From Morchella semilibera (Eukaryota > Ascomycota > Pezizomycetes > Pezizales > Morchellaceae), in the NCBI GenBank assembly GCA_009192285.1, contig WBVU01000017.1, positions 310,001 to 374,000 on the forward strand: DNA of 64,000 bases, written 5' to 3'. Position 1 is the stretch's first letter. Each line of letters starts with the position of its first letter. Positions 5,907-56,600 of this stretch are shown here, piece by piece. A program made the translations under genes and the position numbers. The notes beneath the pieces were generated by a model, which was not told the DNA's origin, did not search any database, and saw nothing but the letters and a program-made list of their open reading frames with translations.

Positions 5907-5922
5907 AATACATGTACTAGTA

Positions 5923-6572
5923 CACCCGTGTCTCAGAAGTTCCCGAAGCCCCCCAATAGGACCTTTAATTCCCTCAACCAACAGACCTGTATTCAAATAA
6001 CCTTTAATATAGATAAAAGAGACTGTTCTATTCATGGGCAGTTTTTCCAGCAATATCCAGTGACTTTTAATGAGAAAGATATAAATTAGTTCTGTTTCAA
6101 TCCTTGAAAATAATTTAAAAGTAGAGAGTTTTTCAACTGACTCCAGATCAGGTAGAATAGATGATTTATATTTACTACAGTATGAAAAAATGGGGTGAAA
6201 TTACTACCATAGTACTGCGGAATTTAGTGACAAATACCGAATTAAATTGGCATAAGAGGAAGAGTACTATACCAATACCGTATTATTACCGCATTGATCC
6301 CGCCCCTCATTTTGGTACTGTATTCTAGCATTTCTAGGTTGATTCGATGGACCATATGTTGATTAGAATTTATTTTTGAGCTACATCATACAATGGAGAT
6401 TATACATTCCAAAATAGAGGCTTTGTACAAATTCTTTTAAATATTTGTAATCCTCAGCATTGTTTAGCTTTTATACAGTCAAAGTTTAACTTTTTTTTGT
6501 TGTATTCTGGTTGAGAGGGAATACTGTTGCTATGGGGGGGTGGGGGCTTCGGGAACTTCTGAGACGCGGGTG
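5923..6572. mobile_element. Non-autonomous DNA transposon with 32-bp terminal inverted repeats
   Basis: The left end starts CACCCGTGTCTCAGAAGTTC at 5923. The right end, read on the other strand, starts CACCCGCGTCTCAGAAGTTC. The match continues through CCGAAGCCCCC, so about 32 bases pair with one mismatch. A TA dinucleotide flanks each end (5921-5922 and 6573-6574), as expected for a Tc1/mariner-type TA target duplication. The 650-bp interior is AT-rich and has no transposase-like reading frame. It must therefore be mobilised in trans, or be dead. It is larger than a typical MITE. Confidence 0.72.
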
Positions 6573-7118
6573 TATGAGTGTGACAGTCGTCACAAATATT
6601 TACTAGCCGTCGGTATTACTACATAAGTGTTATCAACCAACCAGGAACAGGCTTCTTGACCATGGCACTAATAAATTTTTTCAGAAATAGTAGTCCCCTC
6701 CAATTGACCGTAATACGTACGTATAGCCATACTTACATACAAAATGAGAATAATAGAAGAGCGCTAGGGAAAACAATATCAAAAAATCTCCCCACCCCTC
6801 TGAGTTTACCTCTTTTTTGTGTACCCATCATATCGTGTCCATGCAGATCTTCGATGCTAAAAAATAAATCCACAAACCAATGCTATTCGCGCCTTCACTT
6901 GGCACAGAGTGGCTAATTAAAAGGGTTTATGTAACCAGACAAACGAACAGAAAAACACGACTCTTATGGAAGCCACTGGTGCGTAGAAGTCGGAGTGGTT
7001 GCCAAGGAAAGAAAAGAAAATTCCATTCAATAAGTTCCAGCAGGTAGAAATCCAGCCATGATAATAACTATCAATCAATCACGTAAAGTGAATATTAATA
7101 TGACCGCTTGAGAGTGTT

Positions 7119-8204: not shown

Positions 8205-8645
8205 ATCATCGTTGTGGGGAACGACGACCGCTGATGCGACAATAGTTCTGTGGGTTTTATTTTAGCACTGCTCCCTCCGAATATTTTGAAAGATAAGCCA
8301 CATAAGAAAACGAAGGCGCGAAATTTATGGGAGGTCTTACACTTGTTCTTCTTCCGACATGACCGATATCGCGCTATTACGGTGGTGGTGGAGGTCGAGG
8401 TGGGGTGGAGAGGTATCAGCACGGAGCAGCAACAGTAGAAGGAAAAGCAATCAAACAGCTGTACCCTATTAACTAAAGTTGATCTGTGGGTCTCGGAAAT
8501 CAAAGCCACACCAGACATCTAATATTGCTTAGTCACGATAGATCTGATAAGAATTGTCACCACAAATACCCACCAAAGCTATATTAAGCTCCTCCGAACC
8601 TCAACCTCAACCCACGAACCTCCCCAAGATACCCACTGGCCAGTC
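8205..8645. promoter_or_regulatory. Shared upstream region of two splicing genes
   Basis: These 441 bases separate the start codons of two divergently transcribed splicing genes and must contain both promoters. No obvious TATA box was identified. GGTGG/CCACC triplet runs lie around 8378-8410. Confidence 0.55.
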
Positions 8646-9094: not shown

Positions 9095-9979
9095 ACACAG
9101 TTCGAAAGCTGCGCACATGTGTGGCCGCCCCCATATTTTGTCTGAATGTGGCCCTATATTAATACACTAAGGCGCCTGAATACTCACCCGTAACGGGGAA
9201 GACGGGGCTGAAATCAGGATACAATGGGCTAGGAGTTATGAGAGCTAGGTAGAAATGATGGTTCTATACCTGTATTATTACTATACTTTACTTTCGGCGC
9301 ACCTAGTTTAGAGGTTTAACTAGAGTGTAAGCGATGTGTTGACCACGGGAATGATAATATCTGTATACACTTTTTGTTTTGGTAAAATACATGTACTTCG
9401 CTCTGATCCATTGCCCTATTTATGAGGGTATACTTGTTTCCACGGGTAGTTTTGGTCTATAGCGCGCCTCATACTCGAAGAAACCTGCCTCCCACGCTTC
9501 CCATTTCTTTTCCTAACCCCTCCGATCTAACATACAAAGAATGCAAGATAAAAAACAATGCCTCCCCCCACCCTACTAACCTCTCCAGATGAAGAAAAAT
9601 GGACCAATCCCAAAGAATGAATGATTACAAGTCAAAAACATATGAAACACAAGCCTCCTTCCACGACTGCTGAAACGCGAGTAAATAAGTAGACGATATA
9701 AAACACGAAAAGGATAATGATAATAATAAAAAAAATCCCAAAACTAGCAAACAAAAACCCGCTGAAAAACAAAGCCAAGCTTATAAACCATAAATAAAAA
9801 CACAAGAAAGGGAAAACCTAATTCGCCTCTAATAAGGGAATAAGAAATAATAAACTCCCAGTAAATAACAAATGAAAAGTAAATCAAGTGAATGCATCCT
9901 ACAGCGTAACAATAATAAAAAAGAATTTTTAAAGATGAATGGATATACGCAAATAACCCTTTTTTTGTTTCCTCCGCCA
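9095..9979. other. Gene-free AT-rich intergenic region
   Basis: 885 bases between the 3' ends of two convergent genes. It is strongly A-rich on the plus strand from about 9600, with one TACATGTA at 9388. No gene was recognised. Confidence 0.45.
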
Positions 9980-14189: not shown

Positions 14190-17100
14190 AATTTATGGTT
14201 TATGCAAAATGCGTGGAAAGGCAGGCCTGTTATCTGGTGTGTGGAATATGCACTGGAAGAGAACTGCTCGCTCGCTGGAAGAAAAAAGAATGAAAAAAAG
14301 AGAGGAAATAGGTATAGAGCCTAAAGAAAACGATAGTGGGATGTTAACTGGTGTTGGAGGAATGCAACATTGTTTTTTTGCGATGAGAAAAAACGTGCAA
14401 ATGAGTACGGAGGAGCTGAAGGGAAAAACTCGAATCAAGGATGAGGGGTGGAAGGACCAGACTGCGAGGGCTGAGGGGGGAGGGGCTGTTGCTGGCTGCT
14501 GAGTAACTCGGTGGTAGCAGGACCTCGAAAAGACCGGCTCTAGGGAGTAATAATAACGGCAGCAATATCTACTACCATGCGGGTGGGTTTGTGTTGTGTA
14601 TGTGATGGGTGTGCGTGATGGAGGGGAAACAACTGCGTGAGAGGATGTACCGTGTGTATGTACGTGTGAATATTCTTGGGAACTGTGTTTCTGAAGGAAC
14701 AGGAGCTGAATAGTATGTGAGTGAGTAAGTGAGTATGCAAATGCAAGACTCGTAGGGTTTCGGGGGGGCTAATTGACTGGATCTCGATGTGTGGAGAGGC
14801 TTGAGCAGCGGCGGATATGGGGATGCCAGTGTGTGGTCTACGGAATGCTTGTAATTGGTGGTCAGCTTCTGTCAGACACACTACCTACCACGAAGTGATA
14901 TCTCCTGTGAGATGAGGGAAGTCGGAGACCAGAAAAGAAAGCCCGCTATGTGCATGGCATGGCAAGCATGGGGCAGCACACTCGTTGCGTACTAGCTACC
15001 TGCACGAAGCTGCTGTAAAAGTGCTTCCCGAATTCTCATGCTTGCAGGTTTGTGTAACCTGGTTGGTGAGTGCCTCAGAGTCCTGAGCCACGCGGCCAGA
15101 CAAACATATTGTCAACCGCACAGACCGACGACATCGTCCCAGTCCACCGGGACCTTGAAACATTACATCTCCTGTCACCTACTGCAAGCAATGAATAATT
15201 CCTCCTGTCCGCGCTGGTTTCTGCCCCCTCCTAAAACGAATTCACATCGACTTTGAGGCGGTAGAGCACGAATACTCAGGACCCGATCGCGTATCAGATC
15301 CTGTGTCTCTGTCGTGCAGGCAGATCCTGGAGTGCCGTAGCACATATCACTCCTAAACCCAGTCGCGCGCTATGTACCGACCCCGAAACGGTTCTCGGAT
15401 ATTGTCTTCGGAATTCCTAGTGTGCATAGGTGTCAAAGCCTCATGTTATAGAAAGCACTCTTACGCAAAAATAACCTACCATCAAATTATTATTGAATCC
15501 CTGACAGACCTCATATATTTATATAATTAGGCTTAGAGATTTAAATCTTCAACAAACTCGATCAACCCCAACAGTCTAGTTATTCTCTAAATGTCATGGA
15601 CGCAGAAGAGTTTCTTGCTAATATGTATTATATACTTAGGTGAACATACTCCCTACAAGTATGCTCTATCATCCTGTATTCGGATTCCCTTGGCCTATTC
15701 TCTTACCCACTGACCACAACAGATAAATAAGCTCCGGCAAGATCCCCTTACTTTCCAAAATTGACCCTATCGGCCGGTCTCTGAGCCTCACTCGTTTAGC
15801 TATTGATACTACATGTACGTTTAGTTGTAGTCGATCAACAAGCTAAAGATACAGTGGGTGACTAGTGATGATCCAACACATATTTCACCTACTTAGTGGA
15901 TCTTTGTGTATACCTATATAAAGTAGTGAGGTTTGGCTAGATCTGCATACATACCTTTTGCACTGACGGGCTCTAAGACATCAAAACTAAATTACAAGCG
16001 CCCTTACGCTAGCACGGAAACGGTATACTCTAAATTATTTTTTTAGACCTATGTACGATACAGTACGAATTAAGGGACCGGTGGATTTGACCTTGCGAAG
16101 CTCACCGCACATTGGCGGTAATCACGTGACTCAAGGAAATCATCCCAACATAATAGGCATCATAATTGATTCCCTTCGGTCTGAGGTTCCAGTTGAACGC
16201 TTTGGCCAAGCGTTGTGACGCACGGGCGGATTTATGACAACCAGTGTGGCATACTGGAAAATTCATGTTGCGCCTAGAATGCTTCTCAACTAATGATAGA
16301 TACGAGAGTACTGAGGCTACGCCCGTTGAATAAGTCCTATTTCCGATTGCCAACCTACCTACAACCCTCCTCCCATATGATTGGCAAATCCAGCAGAGAG
16401 AAAGTGATGTGAAAACGGACCCGGGATGCATGTGCGGGGTTCGCAACAAGACCGAGTCTCGCTGTTCACCCACTTCTACCGTTGCCAAGGCCGCCGGCGA
16501 TCGAGCTAGGAGTCAAAAGCAAGCCACCCCCCGGAATTTTGTGGTCAAATGGTCAAAGTATGCCTACGGTTGTTGAGCTTGACAACCCTAAGGGCTGGGA
16601 CGGGATAGCATACATGTATTTATTTTACATCTCTGTGAAGCAAAACATGTACTCCTCTACTTACAACGGTTTACAGTACCTTTCAGGTTACGTGAACATG
16701 TGTGTCATCTCAACGAGTATCATAGTGGATATTGTGGACCTAAGAGTAGAATACATGTACATGTAGAGTCGCTCACGGGTATGTGGCGACCACGGGTGCG
16801 TGGGAATTTTTACTTTTTTTCCTTCCACAGGACAGCTAAACTTATAAAAACAAGTAAATGCGAAATAGCGTATGAGGTTTGGGTAGTTCATGGTCTTGAA
16901 TTTGGTACTCACCATGTTGAGACAGAAAGATCCCCACGTACCCGTGGTCACCACATACCCGTAGTACTAACTCGTCACGACCCTGTCCTTTGTTGTCATA
17001 ATCAAGTGCTTGTCGGAATGGGAATTGGTTCTCAGGAAGATCTAGTCGGATCGCTGTAATCGGGGACCAAAATACGACAAAATAGAGTACCGTAACAATT

Positions 17101-19598: not shown

Positions 19599-20228
19599 TT
19601 ACTGGCCCTTCTCATAGAGTTCAAACTCATATGATACCCCTTCTTCCTGCATAATCTGCGGAACATGCTCGTTAACAAACTTTGATAGCTCCTCATGCGT
19701 TCTCTTTGTCCATCCGTTCACCGGGTCCTTGATGTCCACCGGAAAAAACGTATCCACATCATACTCTTTGTCGATGCTAGTCATGAGGATACTTGTGGTT
19801 CCAGGGTACTTCATAGCCGCATCATAAAGCTGTGCGCCCCCAATGACAAAGACCCTCCCTACCTCCCCACTATCCCCGGACTTCAACCTCTCCAGCGCAT
19901 CGTCCAACGATCTCGCCCACACCACTCCATCCTCTCCCACAGAGATATCCGTGGTCCGTGACACAATAACATTGATCCTGTCCGGCAACGGCCTAAACTT
20001 CACCGGGATTGAGTCCCATGTTTTGCGCCCCATAATGACTGCGTTCTTTTTGTTTGGGGCCTCAGGAACGAGCCGTTTGGTGACGCGGGCAAAGTATGAC
20101 AGCTCTTTCCGGAGGCGCCATGGAAGGCCGCCGGACTTTCCAATACCGAGAGCGTTTGTGGCAGCGACGACTATAGTAAGCGGGGTTTGAGGCATGGTCG
20201 TTGTCGTGGTTGTGGGGTTTGAAGTCAT
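19599..20228 (-). CDS. DFR1: Dihydrofolate reductase
   Basis: A single exon of 209 residues, normal for fungal DHFR. After a Thr-rich tag, the fold starts with LTIVVAATNALGIGKSGGLP, followed by WRLRKELSYF, which contains the catalytic acidic residue. NAVIMGRKTWDSIP is the NADPH-binding block, RPLPDRINVIVSR follows, and VFVIGGAQLY is the second glycine pair. The enzyme reduces dihydrofolate to tetrahydrofolate with NADPH, supplying one-carbon units for thymidylate and purines; it is cytosolic. A second in-frame ATG at codon 12 (MPQTPLTIVV) would also give a complete domain. MED22 follows upstream on the same strand. Confidence 0.97.
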   Translation of the reverse strand: MTSNPTTTTTTMPQTPLTIVVAATNALGIGKSGGLPWRLRKELSYFARVTKRLVPEAPNKKNAVIMGRKTWDSIPVKFRPLPDRINVIVSRTTDISVGEDGVVWARSLDDALERLKSGDSGEVGRVFVIGGAQLYDAAMKYPGTTSILMTSIDKEYDVDTFFPVDIKDPVNGWTKRTHEELSKFVNEHVPQIMQEEGVSYEFELYEKGQ

Positions 20229-20927
20229 GATGGGGGAGTGCGTTGTGACAAGGGTTGGGTTGTGATGCCTAGGTATCTGCTAGCAGGAGGGCCAGATATA
20301 CTCACTGCGACTGTTGGCAAACGTTTGCTAGTGATCAGGGATCAATAGGTTAAGCACGTTTGTTTCCCCCAATTTTAATTATGTATTCTCATTGTCACCG
20401 CATGATATATTTTGGTTTACTTACTTACATGTACTTGTTAGTTTTTCTTATGAAGCCGCATAATCTATTGACAAATTTAGATAATACCTAACGTCCACTC
20501 TAGATCTCTATGGGGGTAAAGTGATGTTAAATTAGGTTGAGGCCCCGCCGTACTGGCCTTGCTATCTAGAATACCAAAGAGCTTTATTGGGTAGACTTAG
20601 CCTTAATTCGTTGAAACCCATCTTCGAACTTATTGCGGTTTTATATCCAAGCATGTAATTTGTGATGGTTTTGAGACTAAATGAATCTCATCGGGCAAAG
20701 GCCCAAGGGCCGTCCATTACACGCAGAGTGCCATTCAAACGTATATCACTAGCCAAGGATTGATGTTTCATTTAGGTAAGTAGGTCCGCATTACGAATAA
20801 AAACCACGCTCAGATGCTATCACTAAACGAAGATACTCAAAGGACAAAACTCCATACATATAATACACTTAAGCTATCTGAGCATTCTCCAGGGCTATAG
20901 GGACCATCCTGGAGCTCATAACCAGAG
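20229..20927. other. Gene-free region between DHFR and MED22
   Basis: About 700 AT-rich bases upstream of DHFR and downstream of MED22. One TACATGTA lies at 20426. I see no gene or repeat family. Confidence 0.4.
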
Positions 20928-21397: not shown

Positions 21398-21617
21398 GAC
21401 TGCAGATTTAGGCGAGTTAGAGGTTTCAAACAAAGGGTGTTGGTGGTGCTATGTATGTACGGGTATAATAGCTATGAGTTACATGTAGTTTAATCCACCT
21501 TGTAGTTACTTGAGGTTCGTAGACCCGCCAAGCATCCAGTCTTATCGGGTTCTTATCATCACTACATGTCACTCGAGCGGAAATCTATCCCTCAGGCTAT
21601 CATATGCTAACCCTCTA

Positions 21618-24855: not shown

Positions 24856-25595
24856 TTCGAAGACACTTGAGTGGGTTGTTTTGGGTAATCTGGCGCTAGT
24901 TGTGAGATATGTGACAGAGTACCGGTATTTGTGTTTGATGATGATAGTCAGGCTGAAGGACGTCGCGAGGATTATTATTCGAGGAAGTCGCGTCGCGCGC
25001 AGATCACGATCGGATATACTACAGCAACCAGATTTATGCAGATACATATATGTATGTATGTTTGATACAGATGGTTTGTAAAAGTCTATAAAAAAAAAAC
25101 CGTGGTAATTATAAATTACATGTATTTATTAATACTTTAGCTTATATATGTACATGTATTTGTGTATTCTTACCCTCAGCAATAATAGCATAACTCGGCG
25201 AGCGTTCGGTGATAAAAATCTATGGAGGCCCTGTCACAAAATACTTAAAAATTATCTCTAGGCAATACCTACAGCGTGTATATGCGAATACACATAACTC
25301 TCTAGAAGAAGCATTTAGGTGCCTGATCTGATGAGGTACGAGCTAGTGGGTGATCATCTCAACAACAAAACTACAAGAACGGCCATCACCGTTCCACCAA
25401 GGTACCCCCCGCGGTAACGCCCTCTTTTGACGAATTAATGATATCCACCTAACTACCACCACCTCAAGTCCCCTTCTATTGCGTGACTCGGTCAATACTT
25501 GTTTAAACATCGGAACATCTCCCCCCATTAACGTTATACAGCAGTTACTGTAAAGTTAACCACCCCCGACGACCTCTATTGTCATCTCTCCCAAC
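24856..25595. promoter_or_regulatory. Shared upstream region of HAT1 and the ZIP transporter
   Basis: 740 bases between two divergent start codons. TACATGTA palindromes occur at 25117 and 25151, with TATATATG-type sequence next to them. There is no additional gene. Confidence 0.5.
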
Positions 25596-26734: not shown

Positions 26735-27712
26735 TTCGTTGGTGGCGCGAGTACGGGCGGTTCTTGTATGTTTATATTATATCGATTTCCATTTTTTGTA
26801 CTGCTTGGTAGTAGGTGTTTTGATGACTGTATTGTTGTATGATACAATGTGATTCCCTAGGCTTCCTCTGTGTGCGTGCTGTTTATCTGTCTAGTTATTA
26901 GGCTTAAGTAGGCTGAATAGTAATGTAAATACTGCTTTCTGTTTTGGTGGAAAGGATGTTTCGATCGAAACTTTAAAGGTTGTTGGTCATGTGTAATTGC
27001 AGATGCGGTACTTGGATACCAGTGAAGTACATGTATACACAAACGAGTGATATATTATGATCAAGAGTTAGTACCCACATAGTTAAGCCTGAATCAAACT
27101 GGGTCTGCTCGCCCTATAAAGCCTGGAGCTATAAAAGTATTTACATAGTTTTAAATTATTACTTCTCACGTCCTCATGGTATCAGCGGTCTCTAATTGTA
27201 AAATTGTTCATCCTGATTCTGGTACCAAGCCCGTATGTAAGTGGTTACATGTAGTTTGTAATTTGGCCTAGAAGCAGAGAGCTGGGAATGGCCAAACAAT
27301 AACTTAGGCGGGAGATACAGCTGCAGATCCGTATCCCCTTAAAACACCAACGCCATATATTCGCAAAAGAAGTGTAAGACGTGAGACCTTTGAGTTACCA
27401 GTTGGCGTGGCTAGAGACAAAGTCAGAGAGCCCTAACACGGATATAGGGGATCAATTCCAAGCCTGGGTTGCGCCTTACGGGACCAAATTATGCTATGTC
27501 TTCTGATAAACAGTTCGTTAGTTCCCAGTGATTGAGAGATTTACTACCTTACATGTATATACATGTATGTAGGTACATGTACCCCTCGAGAGGCTGATAG
27601 GTGATTGCATGTACCTCTCTACTCCACGTTACACAGGGCAAGCTGCGGGGTTACCTTCGAGAAATGCTGAGCTGGTCTCTCAAGCCGGCTCCAAACTCGA
27701 CATCCACTACCG
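26735..27712. other. Gene-free region before the NLR gene
   Basis: Holds the upstream region of the NLR. TACATGTA occurs five times (27028, 27246, 27550, 27560 and 27574), the densest cluster in the window. The last three sit within 32 bases, about 135 bases before the NLR start codon. No gene was seen. Confidence 0.5.
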
Positions 27713-31395: not shown

Positions 31396-32529
31396 TGGGG
31401 AAGTCTTGTCCTGTCTTGCATCATTTAGGTTAAGTCTTGGAAATCTGGGTTAATGGTCTAGTCTTGAGACTTTTGGTTATGTGACTTTGTTTCTAAGGAA
31501 CCTCAATCATGATAGCTAATGCAAATTAAAAATTGGGGGAAAGTTTGAACCGTGGCTAGGGCATATTTAGGTGTCGAGGGGTGTGGTATTGGGTATGGTG
31601 TACGGGGGGTTAACAAATTCATGAACATGCATACGTATACTGCGGATGAAGACGGGCCCTAAGTGACTTAGCAAACACAATAGAGACCCTCAGAAAAGGG
31701 TCTCTAATCTATATGTGCTAAAGTACATACACGTATATATGCAAGCAGGGCCCACCAACAGGAAAAAACCAAGCCTTCGACCCTGAGCCTAGCTATATAT
31801 AGGCCTCCTCTGTTAGTAGCTATAGATTTACATGTAGGCAGTAGAGCTTAAGTACAGATACAGTAGGCACATGTAAGGAGGCCAACCACCACCCACCCAC
31901 CGTACGTCCCAGCTACATACATGTGCTACATACATCACAAAGCCTCCACCCACCGATGCCAAGCCCAGTCCGAGTGCGAGTGACGCCCCATGACCGCACC
32001 AGACCGGCCCGGAGTATGTACGTAGTAACCTTCTCAAGCGCACACACACGCTTGATCGAGAACAGCACCTAGAAAGACACGCAGCCACCCAAGAGGGGGG
32101 GGAGGGGAGGGGGGTGGTGGTACGTGGTGGTGGTGTGGCCTGCTAGCTCTGCCTTACCCTACACGCACACATGTGTCAGGTAAGTATTGGTATAGAAACT
32201 GTACTAAGCACGTGCAGGTGTAGCCGGTATACTACGCCCCCGCCCCCGCCCCCAAAAGAGGGGGTTAATTGGTACGCCGAGTGATGGCCCGTGAGCGAGT
32301 ATTCGAGCGAGTGATGGCCCGTGACTGGGCATGGGGCAACCCCAAGGGCGGTATGGGTTCACCGTACTTACATGTACCTACTGCAGGGCGGCAGCCCCTC
32401 GCTTGCTGCGTGTGTAGGGATGGTAAGTATTGCTATGTACATACATTTCTACATTTCTCCACGCCAAGCTAGCGCCGCCCACCCGCCCACCCGCGCACAG
32501 CCAAGAGCGTAAAAACAACCTCTGTCATC

Positions 32530-32608: not shown

Positions 32609-33040
32609 CCTCGTAAAATCTAGGAAAGCTGTCCCCGGGCCGGGGGACGTAAGTCTTTTGTTTTTATTTTTTCCACCCCCCCCCCTTCCTCTCCCCCTGT
32701 GTACCTAGTTTACCTGCCTACATGGAGGTTTTATTTCTCTGTCTTCCGTAGTGGCGTGAGGGTACGGCTGCGTCCTGGGGAGCGGTTGGTTTCGTGTCTT
32801 GGGCTGGGATTGGCTGGTCGGGCTTATAGTATGTTTCTACTGTATGGATTAGTCTCGTTCTTAGACTTTTGTCACCTCGTTCTAATTCTGTAGACTACAG
32901 TGCTGTATCAGTTTGTTTGTGTAGCTACATGTACTTACTCTACTCCACACCTCTACCCCAACTCTACTCTACGAAAAAAACAAAACCCTTACAAAAAACC
33001 CTCCAAAACGAAACGAACCAGACAAAAAAAAAAAGCCTCC

Positions 33041-37223: not shown

Positions 37224-39774
37224 GTGTGTGGGGGGGGTTCTTTTTAGGCTTGAGGCTTGAGGATGGGTAGCATATGGGTTGTAATGGCTTTGCATTTTTC
37301 TTGGTTCGCATCTCTTGTATTACTATAACTATTACTACTACTACTACTATTACTCCACAACCGCTACTACTCAACTGCTACCACCCACCCCCGAGGTGCG
37401 GGATCTGTATTTTATCGTATTGTATCTTACTATATTAGACCACCACCACACCCAAGATACGTTTTAACTGGCGGTTGTGGGCGTCACGGGGCATCACTCG
37501 GTCTTGGCGGCGGCGGCGGTGACAGTGGCTAGGCTAGTTTGGTTTGGCCGGGTGTGGTAGGGTGCTCCCATCCATCTCGCTGTCGCCCTAGGGTCATGCT
37601 CCTTAGTGTTTCCGTTACGTTTTCTCTTACCCCTGCTGCTGCTGCTGGTATGTGTTTGTACACCCCCCTTGTGGCATTGGGTAGTATACATCCACATCCG
37701 CACCTACAGTGCTGCTGTAGATAGATTATGCGCTACTTAGCGGGGGACCATGCCAGTTCGATCTGTTCTGTTCCAGGGCGGGTATCCAGTCCCCACTCCC
37801 ACTCCTATGCTACCACGTAAAGCCGCCATGCTCGCTCGGCCGTATAAGGGGGGGACCTAGGAGCAGGAGGAGGAGCTGGTCAGGCTCGGAGGTATCGAGT
37901 GATGTGTGATGATGCGGTGGGTGTCGGAGGTGGGTATGGGAGTGAGATGGCGGGGTGGGGGCGTATCGCTATGTACGTGTACCTGGATTGGCGCACGCAT
38001 GTGGACTGGTCTTTCGGGGGGGGGGGGTTGAGGGGTACGTTTGTCTATCGAACATCTTTGCCGGGCTGGGCCCGTTGGTATGGTATGGGGTATGTAGGTG
38101 CCCACTGCCCTTACTCCCCAAGAAGCTGCCCAGGAGTTGAGGCACCCACCAGGTACTACCTACCAGCGCAGGGTGGTATGGATGCGCGCGTTGAGTTTCC
38201 GGGGCGGGTGCGGGGCCGAGTGATGGGTTGTGACGCTCTTTCCATCCGCGTGAAACACCGCCTAGACTCCAGCTCTGCATAGACTGCAACTTCCCCACTG
38301 ATATGTACATCGACCACTAGCCATTCACCCCACCCGTACTTAACCCCCCCCCCCCCCCGCTTCCGCATTCCCATTTCCCCGTCCTTGCTAGATGACCGTC
38401 CTCCGGAGATGTAGTGTGCGAGCGAGGCAATAGACAGACACGTCTTTACCGCTGGCCTCCTGGTCTCCCACCCAACTCAAGGCCCAATACCGCCAGATAC
38501 ACATCACCGCCATCACCGCCATCTACTGGGGTCTTGTTATACCCCCACCGCTAAGAGCACACGGCCATAACAGCCGATATCCCCCGCTGCTCTGACGTCA
38601 GGCCAAAACCCACCACCGGGACATGCGAAGGTACCCCCCCCCCCCTGGCGTCTGGATGCTACAATACGACGCGGATATGTCCTGCCCGGAGGTAAAGTTT
38701 GAGGCAAGAGGATACTTCGTCTTCGGCCTTTGGCGGGCTGATCCCTGTGAGTAAGGCCGACTTAAACTACGAGGTAAAGAAGTAAATACCCATCCACGGC
38801 TGTAAAACATAGACCCGAAAAAGTGGCCTCCCACTTTGCAAGAGCAGTCTTGCTCTTGTAGCTAAAGGCGCACAGCAGGTTTACCTTGGCTCCCGGTTGA
38901 GCCTGCCCACCATACCTGCGGGCACTGCTAGAGTGGGACGTGCTCGGCGCTAGATAATTCAAAGGTCTATTGGCATCTCCAACACCAACCACCAGTCTAT
39001 AAAAAACATTTTCTCCGACCATAGCTAGATGGTGGCACCAACACATTTCAGCCCCAAACAATTTCCCACGGTCCCCAGCCCTACATCACAAACATTACAT
39101 GTAAAGAACGCCCTGGGGGAATATAAACTATAGATCGAGAGGTAATGATAAGGAAAGGATGAGATAAGAAAAGGACGCATTAACTACCGAAAACACAGGG
39201 GGGAAATCTCTGCTCCACTCCACAATGCTCACCGAAGCCCCCTAGAAACTACAATACCCTACACCAGACCAGACCATGCCAAAGAGAGGGAAAAAGGGAA
39301 AGAAAAGAAATAATAACTAATGATAAGACTAACCAAAACGGAGGTTTGTCAAAGAGGGAAAAAAAGTTTAGAAAAAACAAAAACATAATCCGGATAACCC
39401 CTATAAACAACCCTATAGCCCTACATGCACCTTTTAATTTACCCTATGACCGGTCTCTATGTAGTAATAGTCCCGACCTCCCCCGACCTCCTTCCGTTTA
39501 TCGTTTCATTTGACAGATGCTAAGGCGATGAACTCCATTTATGAAAGCATACCGTGACATAAACACCCAAGCACCTCAAAGGTCCCATCAGAAACTGCCC
39601 TGTCTTTTGTTTTTGCCCTTTTAAGTGTAACCTGTACTTTTCTAAACTCTTGATGGTCTCTTGATGTTATTGCTGCCACGACTACCAACCCAAACAGAAG
39701 TGGACAAAGTAAACGCCAACTGCTAGACAACTTCCTCTCTCTGAACTGCAAAACTGGGCTCTTCTCGTCTACAT
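37224..39774. other. 2.6-kb gene-free region rich in C/G homopolymers
   Basis: No gene is supported; frames here are short and overlap on both strands. Notable are a G10-class run near 38018, a run of about 15 C near 38345-38359, another C run at 38636-38646, and a purine-rich tract from about 39270 to 39390. One TACATGTA lies at 39096. Confidence 0.45.
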
Positions 39775-42727: not shown

Positions 42728-44776
42728 GAACTATGTGAGGGGTCAGCTCCTGATTGGTGGGGCACAAAGAAACAACGGCACGGCCTACACTTCTCTCGGA
42801 GTGATCCATTATGGGCGTGTGTGCGCGAACCACTTCTTTGTGGCAAAGCGGGAAAATCGAAAGGTAGAAGCGCAGTCCGGAGAAGGATGAAGCGGGGGGG
42901 GCAACAGCGAACGGACAGTCAGGCGCGGGGGAGAGAGTATGTGGGAGGGGTGGTTGATTGACGACTGGACGGAAGGGAGAAGAGAGGATATAAGGATATT
43001 CTTTTTATACGTTGTCGGTGAAGAAGCTCCAGTAATAAGAGCTTCCTTGTTATGTACTTTATAGGTAGGGCAGGTTTCTAAGAATACAATGGAGGGGGGT
43101 AGTGGATCGAGGGGAAGTTTCAAAGATCCAGTTGGACGTTGTCGTTGTCTTTATCGAGTGGGAGGTTCAAAGTCAAGAGAGGTCGCGGGGGCGGGGGAGA
43201 CAGGACAGGCTTCAGAACAGTATACCGCTTTTTTAGATGATTCAAGTGTAAACAAAGGGAAAACGTGTATAAACAAAAAAAGAACCCTTTGAGGTAGGGT
43301 ACCTCACTAAGCCTAAACAAGGCTGAAAATCACGGGTTTCTTCTTTCTCTGAACTGAAAGTGGGATTTCTAGATACAGCAGTACATACATCATACATATG
43401 TAGGTAGAAGCATGTGTCAACAGCGACCGCGGGTTTTTGTTGTTTTATTTCATCCTCTTCTGTTTCTCCACATAAAAAAGCTTCAAGGATAGAGAGAAAC
43501 TCGGGTTTAAAGTACCATAGGGAGAAAGACATGACATGTTCTGGAAGTGTGTCAAGGCGCACGCTTTGGGAGCGCCCTTCTTTCGGGGTGCAGTTACTAG
43601 CTCTAGCTTTCCTCCCCCTACATTAGTCTATCCGTGCGGTGCGGTACGTTGTTAAGTACATGTAGTTAGACTCAACCACTGGAGAGTTTTGACCAGCCGC
43701 TGTGAACACAAAAATCGTGCTCCGACATGCACTCCAAATTATAGGAGTGTTGGAGTGGTTCGGAATTTTTTGCTGTATTTATCGATACCCGCTGCATACA
43801 TGTATTCAACCAAGGTATAAATGTTTTTGCTATTTTTGTTTCCTAAACACCCATTGGCGAACCTAGCGCTCAACGACAACCAACCACAAAATAGCATCCA
43901 GCTAGGGTGAGAGAGTTCACAACTCCATACAGCTGTACATAGGAGTAAAAAGATAACGTTCAGCGTTAATATACCCAATCCCGTGACGTCACCACTACTA
44001 GTGAGGCTCAGCGGAATTTCCCGTAACACGTAGTTTGATGTGAAAGAGCGGCGCAAGGTAAACACATGTACTTTAATTTCATAATCGTATTCCGAAAGCT
44101 AAGTACATGAGTTTATAGGATGTTTATATAAATGTAGCTAGCTATATACTTATATGTAGTTGTTGGGATTAGGAGACATCTACATAAGTAGGTACATGTA
44201 TATATGGTAATATCAATATTGATGATTCTGGTTATATATACCAAATGATATGATGGTGGTGTCGTTTTGAACGATTCTAATTTAAGCTTATCCTACGGGC
44301 TGGTATATAAAGTTGGTATTTTTTCTCTCAAGATATTTTCTATGCACACACATCCAAGGGGAAGTAAAGTACCTTTGTCAAGAGAATTCCTATACGTAAC
44401 CTTGAACCTTACACAATCAGTACAAATAACACGGAGCCTAAATATATGTATGATTGAGCCTCGGGAGCAAGCCCATCACATAATCTAGTCGAGTTTGGCT
44501 TCTAATAAACACTGTACCGTGCATCCATATCCTCAAGATCCTCTAGGTATTATATCCGCTCCAGGAGGGTAACGCACTGAATATACTCGGACCCGAGCGC
44601 CAGGTATTGAATCAATTTAGCTATATCAAAGTAGCAAACAGAGCAAGATTCAGAATCATTGGTCTTCGTCTATAGAGTAACCCTTAATTGGTCAATTATA
44701 AGTTTGCGTGTTAAAATGGCTGATAATGGTTGCCGATAACTACCAAAGCACGCCCCCGTAACTCCTATTAGAAGAA

Positions 44777-47205: not shown

Positions 47206-49741
47206 CGTACATGTTTCTCTGTTTCTCTTCTTTCTGTAGAGTAATTATCTTTTTATACAGCTTTCTCGGGCGAATGGACAATGCTGGGTTTGGCTTTGGA
47301 TTAAGTATTTTGTTGCGTGATCATGTATTTACATAGTAATGGACCCCCATGAGGTCATAACTGACTCGAGTGAGTGCGTATGTTTCTGGGCGGCGCGAGT
47401 GTTAAGTATATCGAAGCATTCCATCCCACTACAACCCACCATAACCCTTACGTGCACTGCCACCTACATGTATGCATGAGCCTGCTGCAAGGAGATATCG
47501 CACCAGAATGACGCTGTGGGACGAGGCTGGCCTTTGTGTGTTTTGGATGTTTAAGCTGGTCAGGCCTGATGCCATACACTCTACCCACCTAACTGGGTCT
47601 ATCATATCCTAGACCTAGGCAGCAGTCACAAATATCTCCTCTCCAGGGTCACATATTTGTCCCTATTACTCAGAGTTAGGGTGCTTACTCTACCAACACC
47701 GCACCACCTCGATATTGTAGGCTACCAAGGCGACCAGTAGCGGAACGGGCACTCGTCCCTGGCCATTGATTTGACGAGAATTCTTGCCGTACCTACCGTA
47801 CTGTTCCGTACCAATCACTAGCTGGCCTGGAATCTCGAACACTCCCGCAGATCCACCGGCCTGGTCACTACGTTGAACGACCGGGGTGTTTGGGGATCTA
47901 CTATTCTCTAATAATCGTACATAGATCACGACGTTGATTTGCCTCTACTCTACCTAAACTCCTACTTGACCACGATATCGATGGTTGTTATAGAAAGGAC
48001 GTTGCTACTTAAGCTTCTTCCCTTTCGTTCATACCTTCTCCGTTGTCTCGGAAAAACAACTTTCGACTACCTACCGCGGCCAATTCCATATATCGATGTT
48101 TGTGACCTCGGCTGAAGAGGCTGAATCCTCGTTTCTTACGGAATATGGGAAAGGAAGCCGTGAAGGATGGTAAAATAAACTTGTGATCTAAACTACATGT
48201 ACATGCCTAATGCATAACTGCTTGCACTCCACCATGACCATGACGCGTAGAGCAAAAACACTAGAACAGAAACGACGCCACGCGAAGACTCATTACCGAA
48301 CTTTGAAAGCGCTCACTACTTATTTTTTTATCAACAGAATTTTATTTTTTTATATGTCAGATTAGATCAAGTAATTTTAGGTCCGTCACTGGGCAAGCTA
48401 TCCAGAGGCCCTCCCCTTCCCTCTTTCGCTCCAAGCTCGCAGCACTAGCTTCAACCACGAGGGTTGAACACGAGGCACAAGCAAGGGGGACAGGAGGAAA
48501 AACACGAAGAGCCTTTTTAAGGACAGCTTATCCTCGGGGCTCTTGCTATCATCATCCAAAACTGTTGTTGGAAGAGGAAGAGGAGGAGAGGGGAGGAAAA
48601 AGGTAGAAGGAGGTCAGTCATGGTGGCATTATATGGGGTATGCACAATAGACCCATCAAAGCTCGCATGATGCAAGGATCGCTTTATTCGCTAGGGCTAG
48701 GGGAAGGAAACAAACGAGCGAACCTAACTGGGGGGACCGAATTTTTTTTTTTTTTTGCCTCTTGTACTTTTTTTCTTTTCTATTCGGTTCCCCCCAGTAG
48801 CGATTTAATAGGTCTTGGCAGCTGGTTGGGACACCCGTGGCAGGCCCACAGGGAAAATAATATAAGGACGCAACAGTTGCCCCCTCAGCCAGCAGCTCAT
48901 CCATCAGAAAGGGAGAGACGCACTGCTTCGGTATTTTTTTTTTTCCCTCTCGCTTGCCTGCCTACTTGGTTTACCATACTCTTTGGTGTCATCTTCCGCA
49001 TTACACCTTTTTTACCTATTTTCCGACCAATCACAAAGATATTATAAATCCCACCTCACCCAACAGCAAATCAAAATTCGCGTTACCTCCAATTTGCATA
49101 AAGCCTTACCCATCTTCCGCTCCCGGCAAATTCCGCCACAGAAAGATTTCCGTTCAGGCCCCCGTCGCCGCTAAATTCGGTTATCCACATCCCAAAACCA
49201 ACAAACGGCCCCTGCAGTTAGCCAGCCACTTTATCTCTCTCCTGGACTGAGGCTAGCTTTCACCACCCATCATCTATCAGTCAAATCAAATTTGTGCGCA
49301 GAAAGGCAGAAAGGTGTCCCGCGCCACTGTCACTTCTCTTCATTTCTTCGCCCCCAACTTCTGTAACGTGGGAAATCTTTAATAGTTGGATCTCTCATAA
49401 AGAGTGCTCCCAAGTAAATTTTATATCTGGGCCTTAGAAAAAAAAGAAGAGCCAAGCCCCTTCGTACCATACTACGTTGCTGCTACTCTTGCCTCTGCTA
49501 GTATTTTACCGGGGACCTTTTACCTGGGCTATTTTTTTTTTCTCACACACACACGCTATACCCGAAGAACACAGATTAGTTGCCTACTGTAGGTAGCTAT
49601 CACCAACCACCACCAACCACACCCACTCACCCCCCATCAAGCCATCCATCTATACAGCAGCAGCCACTGCACACCATTACAACCAAATCGCCAAGCCATA
49701 CCACACCTCTTATTAGAACTCTCTCTACTACGTCATCCATC
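47206..49741. other. 2.5-kb gene-free region
   Basis: Upstream of the NC2-alpha gene. There are T-rich tracts near 48320-48355, 48750-48775 and 48932-48942, TACATGTA at 47465 and 48194, and a long pyrimidine-rich leader from about 49260. Short frames here match nothing I know. Confidence 0.4.
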
Positions 49742-50499: not shown

Positions 50500-52171
50500 C
50501 TGCGTAGTGAACAGGGCCGGAGTAATTAGAGGATCCTTTTTTTTTTATATATCGTTTTAGGGTGTTGGATTGGCAGGGGCGCGGTGGATACCTTTTGTGT
50601 TTTTGTGTTTTTTTCCCCTTTCTTATTCTTCTCTGTGCAGTTTTCCCCTTTTCTTTCCTTCTTATACGCCCAAAGACCAGAGACGATGATCCACAAGAAA
50701 ATGAAGTCCGAAGCCTCCATCCCAAGGGAAAAAGCACACCCCCCCCCCCTTCTTTTTTACCACATACCCACGTCTATCCGTAACTAGCAGCTCATGTAAT
50801 ATCTCCCCATATTCGCTCTCTTCTTCTTCTTTCTTATACCTTTACCTTGACTCTCTCTTTATTTCTTGTATTATTATTATTTACTCTTCTTTTTACTTTT
50901 CCTAGTACTCTGGGCTGGTTGGTTGGCTGGTTGGTTGGTTGGCTGGTTCGTTCTGCACTTTCTCTTTCTTTTTCATTTCTTCCATCTAGGTACTCCATAC
51001 CACCACCACCCATGGGCCCTCCTCCTCCCCGAGACCAACAGAATCAAAATTCCTCCTCCCCCTCCTCCTCTCCTACCCAGGCCCATGCCGGTGCGGGGAA
51101 ACAAAAAAAAGCAAAAGAACAAAACGCACACACACACACACACACACACACACGGCGTTGGTGGGTTGGGTCAGTTAGTTAGGGTGTGCGGAGTTTAACT
51201 GGTGACTTTTTTTTGTTTTGTCTTTTTCTTTCCTTCTTCCTTTCTTTCTTTCCGTCTCCATCTCTCTTGGTGGTTTCCCTTTCCTGGTGGTGTGGGCTTG
51301 TTGCTTTTACGTAGGAAATAAAATGGAACAGGATAGGGGAAAACAATATTTCGCTTTGCTCGTAGGGCTGGCTGCCGCCGCAGCGGGCCGGTTCGGGTGT
51401 GTAGATGTGGGTGCCTACATGTACCCCCTACGGCCTACTCTCCACTCCGTTCCGAAACGCATGGTATGGGGGATAGCTACATCGGTATCTCGATTCCCAA
51501 CCCAAAAAACCCCAACTATAGACACTTCCCCCGCCTTCCCCCGCACCGCCCTGCGCCTATCTATCCCCGCGGGCTTGCTCGATGCTAGGAGTATATATAA
51601 CACGACCAACTTTTTTTTGTTCCCCCCCCCCACCACACCACACCCAAACCTGCCAAACCAATCTATACAGTCCCTAATAAGTACTGGTGGTAGTGTCACC
51701 AGACAAAAAAGAAAGGAGGAAAAGAAAAGGAAATAAAGGAAATAAAAGAAAAGAAAAGAAAAGAATATGTGTGTGGTTGATCCGGATCGATCGTAGCCGG
51801 GATGCGGGGGGATGGGGGTATAAGGTATGGATGAGGATGCAATGAACAGGATGGAAATACATAAATAACAGGAAGCAATTACCACCAAAATATATAGATC
51901 CCTCCTCTCACACCTCGAGAGGAGGAATAAGATAGTAGTAGTAAATAATAGAGAGATAAGAAAGAAAAAGGAAAAACCCAAACCTAAGTCTACATAGCCC
52001 ACCGCCCACCGGCCCAATCGCCGCCCCGTCCCAAGTTGTCCCCCGGCGGGGACAGAGAGAAAAAAGAAATAGCCCATTAGCAGAAAAAGAAAAAAAAAAC
52101 AGAGCAAAAACAAATGTAGGGAAAAAAAGAAAGAAAATGAAGTGGGAAAAAAAAAGCAAACAGTTACGCCG
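50500..52171. other. 1.7-kb convergent gene-free region
   Basis: 3' flanks of two convergent genes. The left half is pyrimidine-rich and the right half (51700-52160) strongly purine-rich on the plus strand. It includes a GGTTGGTTGGCTGG tandem near 50925-50950, a CA dinucleotide run at about 51128-51152 and a TACATGTA at 51416. No gene is supported. Confidence 0.45.
51126..51153. repeat. CA dinucleotide microsatellite
   Basis: About thirteen CA units directly readable in the sequence, in the 3' flank of the NC2-alpha gene. Confidence 0.9.
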
Positions 52172-53626
52172 TTATGGCGCATCGTCGCTCAGCTCTGGTT
52201 CCAGTCTCGTAAGCTCCGTAACCTCCTCCTTCTTCTTCTCCGGTATAGGCTCCTTCATCGCCGAGTACTGCTCCCACCTCATGCTGCACTGATCCTCGAC
52301 CCAACAGCCCGCAAAGTGTACGACGAGGTCGCCCTTCCTCCAGCCCATTCCGGGGGTGCCAATGGCATATGCGTTGAGTGTGGTTTGTGGGACGAGCGCA
52401 AAGTGCTCCATTACCGTGCGGTGGTGGAGTGCCAGGTGGAGCTGTGTCATACCATCGTTAGTATTTCCGTGGGCGACGGCGGTGGTAATGGTGGTGGTGG
52501 CGATATGGGGGGATGTGCATGCTTACCACTGCGCTCTGCTCCTGGCCAAGCCATGGCTTCATCACAAAGTCCGGGTCAGCCCATATATCCATAAACTGCC
52601 TAGTCCAGTGGCTCCTCCTGATAAAGAAGCTCCCCGCATTGATGCCGTTGTGATCCTGGCTAAAGATTAGATCCATATTCTTCACATCGAACGTCTCCGG
52701 CGTCGCGATCTCGGTCATGCCCCCGCCCGGGCGGTTGAGTATCTGACCCGTGAGTATCTTCTTCTCGAGCGCCGCATGGGAGAGTAGTAGATCGTTGAGG
52801 TTCACGCTCGGCGTCATGATGATTGCATCAAGGTCCAGCCACCAGATCCATTGCGCATCCGGGAAAGTGTTGAATGTCTCCGCGATGGCGGGCAGCTTCG
52901 CCCACACGGGGTGGGACCCGCCAATGTCGTATTTGGAGATGTTAATGAAGTGGTATGTGTAGCCGTGGAGGTCGGCGTATGCCTGTCTGTTGACCTGCGT
53001 CTGCTCAAACAGATTCTCGATGCCGCCGTTGTGGCCCTTGCCGTCGGAGGCGCAAAGGAGGATGATCTGGTCAGGGCGTGGGCCGGCTGGGTCGTACTTG
53101 ATGTCGTCGGGGATGGTGAAGTCGACTTGTTTAGCGATCTTGGCGGCCTGGATGGTTTTCTTGCGGATTTCCTCGATTTGTTTCTTGTCTTCCGCCTTTG
53201 CCTTCCGTTGTTCTTCTTTGAACTTATCTTCCTCTGTTTTTCCGTTGTTAGTTAACTCTGGCTCTGGGTCGAGGGTGTGGGCTGCGGCGCTGGTAGTGGT
53301 GGTTGTGTGGGCGTAGTAGTTATAAGTACTCGAACTCGTCAATTCCCATTGCGCCGGGACCTGCACAACGGCGCCTGGGAACTGCGGGTCCTGATTTTGA
53401 CTTAGTAGTGATGAGGCCGCGCCATAATAACGGCCCCTTGACTTGGAGTCGAAGAAGGCCGCGAAAGTGACGAAAAGAAAGATTATAATTAATGCAAGGA
53501 AGCAGTTCCTAGAGCGCGCAGGAACCGTCAGAAAATCAGTTTAACTGAACGAATTGAGGTATGTGCGTGTGAGGGAAGGAGGGGGGGGGGGGGAGCGGAT
53601 AGCTACTTTGATAACAATCGGGCCAT
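52172..53626 (-). CDS. GT34 alpha-1,6-mannosyltransferase (Mnn10/Mnn11 type)
   Basis: Three exons on the minus strand: 53626-53607 (20 nt), 53508-52527 and 52441-52172, in phase to 423 residues. The short first exon begins in a good context (ACCATGG) and gives MARLLSKNCFLALIIIFLFV, a type II signal anchor. A Lys/Glu stem of about 40 residues follows. The catalytic part has IILLCASDGKGHNGGIENLF, YADLHGYTYHF, WIWWLDLDAIIM (the DxD metal site) and NAGSFFIRRSHWTRQFMDIW. It ends in WRKGDLVVHFAGCWVEDQC, typical of GT34. In yeast Mnn10 and Mnn11 extend the alpha-1,6-mannan backbone in the Golgi. Which of the two this resembles more cannot be decided here. Confidence 0.9.
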
Positions 53627-56600
53627 GGTTTTTCTATTTTTTTTGTTCTTCTGGTTTATTACCCCCGGAGGTGTGTGCGCTCAGCGGCTCTGCTACGTGC
53701 GTCTTTCCTGCCCGTGCCTTGCCTGGCCCGATTGACTGCGTTGTGGAGTATGTAGTATACTCGTGGGGGGAGGGGGGTTAAGTGAGAGTTGTGAGACAAA
53801 AAGCTCTGCTGCACCTCAACTCGTACCTCTCAGGAGGGTATGGAGGATGTATAAATCAAGTACAAGTATGGAATCACTGGCACTGCCCGGTGTTGGGCGT
53901 GGGAGGAAGGTAAGTGTGGGGGGTGGGAAAAGAAAGGAAGAGGAGGAGGAGGAGCGGAAGGGTAGAAGAGGTCGTCGGCCTTCTAGCTTCTCTTGCTGTC
54001 CGTTCGGAAAGGGGGGGCAAGTGGTGACGACGCGTTAACCTTGTAGGGGGAGCTTCCTTTCCTGTCTGAGAAAGTTAATAGAAGTGGAGGGAGAATTCCG
54101 AAGTGAAGTAAATAAGATGTAGTATAGTTAGAAGGAAAAAGAGGGACAAGAGCAAGAACTAGTGATGACGAAGGTCAAGAGAAGGAAAGATGTATTTTGT
54201 GGTAGGAAAAAAGAAATTAGGTATGTTTAGGGTTGAATGCAGGACTCTTCAGTCGAAGGGAAGCTGTGAAATTGGATCCGGCATCTAGGTCTGGAAGACC
54301 ATGATCGAAAACAAAAAAAAAAAAAAAAAAGGTCCCCTCTAATAGCCCCTCCCCCCCCCTCCCCCGTCCATCCACATGCGAATTAGTAAATTCTCCGGTT
54401 CCAGAGGATGTTCACAATTAACATGTATATGGGTAAGGCTAGCTAATAGCCGTAAATCGCGGGGGCCAATTCTACCTGCAGAATCTCCAGGTTGAGAAAT
54501 CTTTGTGCAACGCTTTTTTACTGTAGCTCTCTCTTCTACTCCCGGTTTCGCCGACACGATACGTCGATACGATACGATAATAACATACAGCTGGGAAGCT
54601 TACTAGTACTATGTACCCCCCGTTTAAGCCTCAGTTAATTCGTTATCATTCGCTCCGTCACACACGATCTCCCCCGGTTTTTCGCCTGACAATCTGCATA
54701 ACGATTAAAATGAGATGGCGTTTGATCGCCAGGGTTTGGGCTAGGGATCCTCTTTAGGAAGTTTGCTGCTCCCCCCCTTCCTTTCCTTTCCCCCTTTGGT
54801 GCCCCCAACCAGTGGACACACCTTTCTCTGCCAGAGTTCAAACTACATGTAGGTACATCAGTCAGTCAGGTCGGCGGCGCACCTCCGCTATCAGTAAGCA
54901 GTACAAAACCGCCCCCATGCTTTTTGTTTGGGGTATCTCAGCAGGGAGGAGGAGGAAGATGACCCGACGTACCTATCTGCTGTTTGCAGGCAGACGCGCA
55001 GGCGCGGCGTAAAGTGAGTTGCGGCTCAGCTGAGCCCCGGTGCCAATCCTTTTTCCTAAGTGTACCTACATGTACCGGGTGCATAGGAGACGAATGTTCC
55101 CAGCTACCGTCCAACAAAATAGCCTGTTTGATACTAGAGATAGATACCAGAGCAACGATAAACGGCTCCGGAAACATCGACCCCGCCTGCAGCTGCAGTT
55201 GAGCCGGGGACCTGTAACACTTGCAAGTATGTAGAGTGGTATGTACTTCCGTTTTCAGGACACCGGTGAGTATACGTATGTACTTTCGTAGATGGGCACG
55301 CACTCTTTTGCGTGCCACGGCCATGCCCGTAGGCGACACTTACATGTTTTCGTCTGTACTTTTTGCGTTTTGGGTGCTTACTGTGGCTATCGATGGCCCA
55401 CCACACGAAACTATGGGACTAACGGAAACCGACCCTGTTTATCACCTGGGGCTTGGCACCTCTGGCCCTTTTTTTTTTTTTGATTGCATAGAAAGCATAG
55501 AAATATAAGTGTGAACCCAAAGGTTAAATGCGCAAATATGGAAGTCACGTGTTCAAACCCAAAGCTTAAGTAGCAAAGCAGCCACGACCCGCCATGCGTT
55601 GAGGGATGGAAACGGGGTGGCCGTGGAGGGGATGTTTCCGCAGCCGCGCATGGGGGCGGGCCCGATCCCCGCTCCCGGAGGACTAACTTTTTTTTGGGGG
55701 CGGTCCCAAAGACTAATTATACCTCCCCTATCTCACAGCAGGTTGATAGAGAGAGAGAGAGCGCAGATACGGATACGGGCGGCCCTGTGCTACCACCCCC
55801 CGCTCTAAAACCTTATTTATATCCTTTTTTGTATGTATGTACATGTATGTATGCGTTTATCGATCGGAGGGTCTGTTAAGCTTTCTGCCTACATTATAGA
55901 TCCCGGATCCCCCAGTCTCCCAGCTATGTAGGACTGACCAGTACGGTAGCAGCCCCCCTCCCCCATCTTCCTTACGAGCTACAGCTAGTACACCATCTGT
56001 CATCTCCACCTACCTCCCTCCTATGACTAAACCCACTACAATATACTAAACCAATTAAACAGCAATGCTTAGCCTCCCGTAGACTCAACCTTCTCCACCA
56101 GAGCAAGCAGAGCCGTCTGTGACTAGGCTGTGGCTGGCCTGTCCCGCCTGCACGGGCATGCGAGTGAGTGGTGGCGGGCGCTATTGGGAAAATGTGGGGG
56201 TGGGATGGCCCTAAAACAGGCGGTGGTGTGTGTTGTCTACTCTGCATAGCCAGTGGACGCATCACGAGATATCACTCGGTGACTTATCGCAGTGGTTGGT
56301 TGAGTGCTGGTATATACATGTATGGTATGCTGCCTACATGGAGTTTCTACACGAATGCTTACACTGCAGTGCCGTCTCCCACGGAGCGTACGTGTGTATC
56401 TCTACGCTCTACTGCTATAGCCAGACCCTGAGGCTATCGGTTGGGGCCAACACCCCCATGCACCACATCTCATGTAATCAGAGCTTCGTACATGTAATTA
56501 CATGTATCAATCCACGGGTACAAGTGACCAGCCATGACCATCCACAACGGTTCAGTTCAGTTCAGCACAGTACTCTATCTCTACACTACTCTCTTCAGGT

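Follow-up and report, generated by a model that had tools for sequence, protein, structure and literature searches.

An abundant palindrome in the non-coding DNA of Morchella semilibera, a putative binding site of a symmetric protein

Introduction

The 8-bp palindrome TACATGTA recurs along a 64,000-nucleotide stretch of the fungus Morchella semilibera (assembly GCA_009192285.1, contig WBVU01000017.1, positions 310,001 to 374,000), the whole of which we call the window. Its closest described counterpart is found in oomycetes. In Phytophthora the word is known as motif-1, lies upstream of 12,070 genes and is correlated with expression; the same paper argues for a homodimer as its reader and against a transposon scar (PMC3520976). 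In P. infestans it was catalogued as M93, with 4,150 copies in promoters and a link to general growth (PMC3597505), and P. sojae has a similar motif, IF-2 (PMC6165875). The word is also named as the preferred site of Iroquois (Irx; TALE) homeodomain dimers, and as a rare footprint of the transposon Tc1 in C. elegans (PMC3520976). Finally, the cyanobacterial 8-bp palindrome HIP1 (GCGATCGC) goes with DNA methyltransferases for its inner words (PMC4390886). Whole-word matches to TACATGTA among 5.39 million open-access papers are limited to three on Phytophthora, and no report of the motif in a fungus was found there; in a yeast paper, a longer word that begins with TACATGTA is a primer (PMC3445587).

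The fungal palindrome shares with the Phytophthora motif the identical 8-mer, over-representation outside genes and thousands of copies. It differs in that the oomycete motif is described in upstream regions and as correlated with expression, whereas no promoter concentration is found here. Like HIP1, it is a single 8-bp palindrome in large genome-wide excess. HIP1 also lies in coding DNA, whereas TACATGTA avoids predicted coding DNA and has outer TA dinucleotides. The Tc1 footprint consists of the same 8 bases, and the palindromes, like the Tc1-like insertion sites of the present genome, have A at -3 on both sides. That footprint is rare in its own system, whereas here about 20,000 exact copies exceed expectation, variant footprints are not strongly enriched, and the -1/+1 bases differ from those at sampled Tc1-like elements.

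Our best single reading, on which our confidence is evenly balanced, is that the TACATGTA dyad is a putative binding site of a symmetric (homodimeric) sequence-specific protein. If so, the word could lead to a major DNA-binding protein of this fungus. If the copies are instead transposon scars, then excision, not regulation, would have written some 20,000 words into the genome, and it would be necessary to reconsider whether the identical motif of Phytophthora is regulatory.

Results

The palindrome is in large excess across the genome. An initial annotation made by eye had listed 31 copies in the window and expected about one by chance. Every coordinate in that list is exact and the window holds no further copies; in 100 dinucleotide shuffles the word occurred 0.67 times on average and never more than 3 times, with 0/100 reaching 31. 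Only the A, C and T homopolymers are commoner 8-mers in the window. The genome comprises 56.76 Mb in 23 contigs, with the window at C14:310001-374000. Genome-wide there are 22,206 copies of TACATGTA, against 3,723 of the backward word ATGTACAT. Both counts are somewhat too high, as the contig pairs C9/C10, C12/C13 and C21/C22 appear to be near-identical.

Finer measurements used a 224-kb sample, made up of the window and 16 of 18 ten-kilobase stretches (L-numbered, like the other loci below). The other two, L018 and L021, were left out, being 100% identical to L017 (over 9,965 bases) and L020 (over 9,978 bases) where they overlap. In the sample, 96 copies of TACATGTA stand against 4.6 expected from a second-order Markov model; the backward word is itself about 3-fold over expectation (14 vs 4.8). 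Over 244 kb, with the duplicates still in, TACATGTA has the highest z-score of all 8-mers, exceeding the homopolymers. The initial annotation had allowed that its excess might dissolve into a Markov expectation; neither the genome count nor the sample count does so.

The three contig pairs are 100% identical over the compared stretches, but their offset varies from place to place, as though the assembly had kept duplicate or haplotype contigs. Since the near-duplicate stretches examined are 100% identical, haplotype comparison was uninformative for the palindrome.

The core is sharply defined. Among the 16 palindromes of the form TAnnnnTA, TACATGTA is enriched 21-fold, the next, TATATATA, 4.5-fold, and the others at most 2.6-fold. 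All 24 single-mismatch neighbours pooled amount to 164 copies vs 100 expected. When the gap between TACA and TGTA is varied, gap 0 gives 96 copies and gap 4 gives 20 (overlapping repeats counted), while other gaps give at most 13, with 5.3 expected.

Symmetrised flanks (192 sides of the 96 sites) carry an A at -3 in 114/192 and a T at -4 in 112/192, and little at other positions. An outer TA at -4/-3 is present on 76 of the 192 sides of perfect sites (40%), compared with 11.5% across all TA contexts; both outer TAs occur at 20 of the 96 sites, a single one at 36 and none at 40. The NN linker between core and outer TA accepts nearly any two bases, not CA or TG alone, and palindromy stops at the outer TA. 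The outer TAs flank the core and are optional, so the full unit is a 16-bp dyad, TANNTACATGTANNTA, which has 3,317 copies genome-wide vs 251 for its backward control. The initial annotation had recognised the 8-bp core correctly and had missed the outer TAs.

The sharpness of the site bears on whether mutation alone could have produced it. A TACA/TGTA tetranucleotide-repeat seed, or template-switch repair perfecting near-palindromes, might generate such words, and the spacer DNA does have a general excess of most 4-bp repeat kinds, with some TACATGTA copies lying within TACA/TGTA runs. We consider this origin improbable, as no such enrichment is seen for other palindromes, whether built from these letters or from others, the linkers are of nearly every kind rather than CA or TG only, and palindromy ends at the outer TA. 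The initial annotation's suggestion of a spreading microsatellite-like motif is likewise disfavoured, since only one member of the palindrome class is strongly enriched.

The flanks are coupled to the half-sites. Where one outer TA of the core is changed (by 1 or 2 bases), the flanking TA is present on the intact side in 39/127 cases and on the changed side in 14/128 (p = 1e-4), under a grouping of mismatch neighbours chosen post hoc. TACATC/T carries the flank in 41/199 cases, compared with 125/1042 for TACA without the following T (p = 0.002). Loss of the flank on the mutated side is what a two-subunit site predicts, whereas decaying scars should keep both flanks. The site therefore has the dyad symmetry, with flanks tied to each half, expected of a protein dimer site, a match that is weakened by the spacing control described below. 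Support from half-site coupling is moderate.

The copies do not form one repeat family. Within 250 bp on either side, 1/96 contexts has a spanning match among the sampled loci, and that match is a 35 bp TACATA-type repeat; this comparison would miss low-copy relatives in other parts of the genome. A single family, such as a miniature inverted-repeat transposable element (MITE), was rejected on this ground within the sampled loci, and with it the possibility, raised at the outset, that all copies are parts of one aligned repeat. Longer alignments across sites (140 site entries, of which a few count double where loci overlap) are L032/L033, 168 bp, in a Tc1-like element; L065/L066, 167 bp, pogo-like; and L005/L057, 85 bp at 73% identity. 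The palindrome is present in both members of each pair.

An RNA gene or tRNA signal was also rejected, as the window has no Rfam match at gathering score and no tRNA. A search for 5.8S rRNA gave just a fragment scoring below the gathering threshold. The second half-site read as RNA, UGUANNUA, would resemble a PUF-type RNA element. We set this candidate aside because the motif is a DNA dyad and is sparse just downstream of genes.

The copies lie outside coding DNA. A hidden Markov model (HMM), trained on the long open reading frames (ORFs) of the sample and liable to miss short exons, called 29.5% of the sample coding. It placed 0/96 copies there (p = 3e-15 by proportion), and 0/31 in the window, so the claim that the word is confined to non-coding DNA holds as to predicted coding sequence. 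The window copies are listed below; every row is an exact match outside HMM-predicted coding DNA, with "." as its strand symbol.

5909..5916, TACATGTA copy 1
9388..9395, copy 2
15810..15817, copy 3
16611..16618, copy 4
16752..16765, copies 5 and 6, overlapping (16752-16759, 16758-16765), spacing 6
20426..20433, copy 7, about 200 bp upstream of a minus-strand DHFR ORF (19599-20228)
21480..21487, copy 8
25117..25124, copy 9, divergent spacer between HAT1 (minus) and a ZIP transporter (plus)
25151..25158, copy 10, same HAT1/ZIP transporter divergent spacer
27028..27035, copy 11, upstream spacer of the NLR gene
27246..27253, copy 12, upstream spacer of the NLR gene
27550..27567, copies 13 and 14 (27550-27557, 27560-27567), spacing 10, shared NN linker
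27574..27581, copy 15, 132 bp ahead of the first NLR ORF (27713, PigL_N domain)
31829..31836, copy 16
32369..32376, copy 17
32926..32933, copy 18, within mechanical ORF 32900-33352, not called coding
39096..39103, copy 19, 3-prime side of a kinesin gene
43657..43664, copy 20, upstream side of the kinesin gene
43797..43804, copy 21
44193..44200, copy 22
47465..47472, copy 23
48194..48201, copy 24
51416..51423, copy 25, overlapping the stop end of mechanical ORF 51415-52182 (minus; without Pfam match; not called coding there)
54844..54851, copy 26, divergent spacer between a glycosyltransferase (minus) and an IlvD/EDD dehydratase (plus)
55067..55074, copy 27, glycosyltransferase/IlvD/EDD spacer, in mechanical ORF 54938-55339, not called coding
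55840..55847, copy 28, glycosyltransferase/IlvD/EDD spacer, with TATG/TGTA tetranucleotide repeats on its flanks
56315..56322, copy 29, glycosyltransferase/IlvD/EDD spacer, in mechanical ORF 56230-56694, not called coding
56489..56506, copies 30 and 31 (56489-56496, 56499-56506), spacing 10, in mechanical ORF 56230-56694

The copies are clustered and uneven. Of 180 spacings (81 from the sample, 99 from the first 100 positions listed for C1), 22% do not exceed 100 bp, compared with 5% if placement were random. In the window, the overlapping pair at 16752/16758, the spacing-10 pairs at 27550/27560 and 56489/56499, and the triplet at 27550, 27560 and 27574 just before the NLR gene are all as the initial annotation had described them. 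Density varies among stretches (chi-square 57, 22 degrees of freedom). Stretch L017 has 18 copies within its 10 kb, and 17 of these lie downstream of an AAA gene, which we take to be ClpB-type. Around 45 gene blocks, with one copy allowed to serve two genes, density peaks 500-1000 bp downstream (23 copies, 1.54 per kb), and 22 copies lie 1.5-2.5 kb upstream (0.94 and 1.40 per kb); these distances are approximate, because our own gene models are without transcript ends and miss short exons.

The NLR-type gene itself (window 27713-31260, plus strand) encodes PigL_N, NPHP3_N and GPIID_WHD domains and contains 99-bp ankyrin repeats in an array (86% matches), to which an array at L011:4023-6161 is related. 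This architecture and the fungal domain of HAT1 suggest a filamentous ascomycete.

Transposon excision offers the main rival account, one that we regard as possible but doubtful. A Tc1/mariner element ending in CA...TG would insert at TA, duplicate it and leave two bases of each end when it exits, converting TA to TACATGTA; some 20,000 scars of this kind would imply that hopping has gone on for a long time. The initial annotation had considered a regulator's binding site, a nucleosome or replication signal and a spreading motif, but not these scars, the strongest rival. Suitable elements are present. The genome has 69 DDE_3 and 96 DDE_1 matches (Tc1-like and pogo-like, with exon pieces and duplicate contigs counted), and several Tc1-like and pogo-like families end in CA...TG beside TA, so that TA plus the end dinucleotides plus TA gives the core. 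Elements ending TA-CAG...CTG-TA were found at L030, L032, L033 and L036. One element end sequence occurs at 395 genome places with up to 3 mismatches (45 for its backward control), MITEs of about 105 bp included.

The location and spacing of the copies would also suit scars. They are absent from predicted coding DNA and thin within the first 500 bp of genes. Their commonest short spacings are 6, 10 and 14, and of the 26 spacings that do not exceed 40, 15 are 2 mod 4 (a post hoc count). The excess of mismatch neighbours is mostly due to transitions, with C>T at 31 vs 11.9 and the inner A>G next to the edge at 23 vs 7.8.

The insertion sites of the elements point the other way. From 20 of the 395 end places and the other sampled copies we obtained 45 Tc1-like ends from 25 copies (L040 and L041 gave none). 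These sites do have A at -3 (27/45) and T at -4 (21/45), as the palindromes do. However, 43/45 ends lie at TA preceded by G and followed by C (G-TA-C), whereas palindromes have G at -1 on only 52/192 sides (27%, p = 3e-18). The families at L057, L058, L059 and L064 are also at G-TA-C, and at L060 one side has G and the other C. Pogo-like ends have A at -3 in 24/78 cases (31%), which equals background, against 59% in palindromes; the 78 ends were found by one pattern, with duplicates counted. The sampled Tc1-like and pogo-like elements were therefore rejected as the source on their flanks, the -1 G for the former and the -3 A for the latter. An extinct or unsampled element family could be the source.

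Excision should also leave relatives of the perfect scar; these are not strongly enriched, and the evidence on them is mixed. TACATA/TATGTA is 2.0-fold enriched, not above TAGCTA at 2.1-fold; TACAGTA/TACTGTA is 1.3-fold, TACTAGTA 2.0-fold and TATTAATA 2.6-fold. TACA and TGTA separated by 1 to 3 bases give 3 to 5 copies vs 5.3 expected. The longer variants TACAGCTGTA (1 copy) and TACATATGTA (2 copies) are too few to judge. The loss of the flank on the changed side of neighbours with a mutated outer TA is not what decay would do. No clean pair of TA and TACATGTA was found among the 140 site entries, compared within sampled loci, with alignments at the MITE edges of L042, L044, L047 and L054 set aside. 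What looked like empty sites in L001 and L008, when compared with L016, was taken on visual inspection for the border of a separate element flanked by TA. A post hoc comparison also speaks against scars: over 9.7 kb, two loci with retroelement domains contain 1 copy, against an expectation of about 6.

Some TACATGTA copies have themselves received an insertion in one of their TAs, by MITEs (last TA; L042, L047 and L054) or by a Tc1-like element (L057). The palindrome thus serves as an insertion target. The L057 element (L057:1031-2372, ends CACCCGCAGG) sits exactly in the first TA. The MITE family of about 105 bp has ends TACAGCGGTAGGTAATAAGTGATGGA and, with its Tc1-like partners, occurs at L008:524-636, L011:8400-8516 and L037-L056, at G-TA-C. 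Two pogo-like elements, L065:582-2670 and L066:578-2808 (ends CAGGAGAAGCTYGCTATA), each have a TACATGTA 86 bp inside the right end, and L065 also lies within a larger inverted-repeat structure resembling one in L035.

Discussion

The reading of TACATGTA as a protein-binding dyad draws on its copy number, exact core, symmetric outer TAs, non-coding location, unshared flanks, uneven density and half-site coupling. A symmetric protein would bind as a dimer, with each subunit reading one half, ATGTANNTA, and the halves overlapping in the central AT. The distribution of the copies suggests that such sites would have a role in spacer DNA or chromatin, and not that of ordinary core-promoter elements. 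Of the options raised by the initial annotation, a putative abundant regulator that binds the word is the best supported, though without promoter concentration.

Several observations weigh against a binding site. First, 22,206 sites are many for one regulator, and no candidate protein was found in the genome, where the sole Homeobox_KN gene (L027) reads WFINARRR. By general specificity rules, a homeodomain of this kind favours TGAC, not ACATGT. Second, the positions are not those of promoter elements. Spacers between convergent genes hold 17 copies in 26.0 kb, tandem spacers 25 in 39.5 kb and divergent spacers 17 in 20.3 kb (the remaining 37 copies are in stretches cut by a locus end and outside these counts). 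Within 500 bp of the 45 gene blocks there are 7 copies upstream and 7 downstream (0.37 and 0.36 per kb), a density that differs from the mean at p = 0.03 only. Neither the spacer classes nor these distances show a concentration upstream of start codons. Third, the four example sites printed in the Phytophthora passages lack the outer TA (0/8 sides; PMC3520976).

The half-site evidence also has its counterweights. Neighbours mutated in the inner four bases keep their two flanks about equally (20/71 and 17/71), which also fits decay. One-mismatch neighbours as a whole have an outer TA on 75/297 sides (25%), between the control at 12% and perfect sites at 40%, as neutral decay of scars would give. 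In the context A..TA-nn-TA..T, the leading inserts are TG (34), TA (32) and CA (30) of 212, and TG and CA are the half-scars expected from excision. In the spacing test, the gap-2 excess of TACATC/T is about 2.2-fold, vs about 1.9-fold for the control TACAA+C/T; given this similar excess, part of the half-site signal reflects the general 4-bp tandem habit of the DNA, in which TA pairs spaced by four bases are in excess overall. Genome-wide, the half-site TANNTACATY has 8,290 copies vs 13,772 for its backward control (both strands), a control whose different trinucleotides made it, in our judgement, unsuitable.

For Phytophthora the proposal was a classical promoter element read by a TALE (Iroquois-like) homeodomain protein, and TACATGTA is the word named as the preferred Irx site (PMC3520976). 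We think this very improbable here. Promoter concentration was not found, and the genome has one Homeobox_KN match, that reading WFINARRR, although genes split by introns could be missed. Irx proteins carry Ala at the compared position of WFINARRR, and by such specificity rules the fungal homeodomain read here, that of the Homeobox_KN gene, is not Iroquois-like. A general homeodomain model has five matches elsewhere in the genome, of which two lie on C9 and C10, the duplicate contigs. In P. infestans, 4/5 homeodomain targets contain TCA (PMC11267843).

A broader version of the binding-site reading, which we put forward tentatively, is that TACATGTA is a eukaryotic "highly iterated palindrome". 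About 20,000 copies, many within TANNTACATGTANNTA, would mark spacer DNA and be read by a dimeric protein that organises spacer chromatin, and the core may be shared with oomycetes by convergence or by deep conservation. As with HIP1, it is one 8-bp palindrome that stands out genome-wide.

The same spacers contain another non-coding motif in high copy number, CGAGTGATANNYYRTGAY, in which TGA is directly repeated at a distance of one helical turn; its copies have no flanks in common. It is not palindromic, and its form suggests a protein site. Its co-location with TACATGTA is not above chance in the comparisons made (lowest P 0.08). In the window it is found at 27044 (+), 63615 (+), 45682 (+) and 56278 (-), and it is also present in L010, L015, L016, L023, L025 and L026. 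The form CGAGTGA-N6-RTGA has 41 copies in the 224-kb sample, 0 of them in predicted coding DNA, and CGAGTGATAT has 13 copies, 39-fold over expectation.

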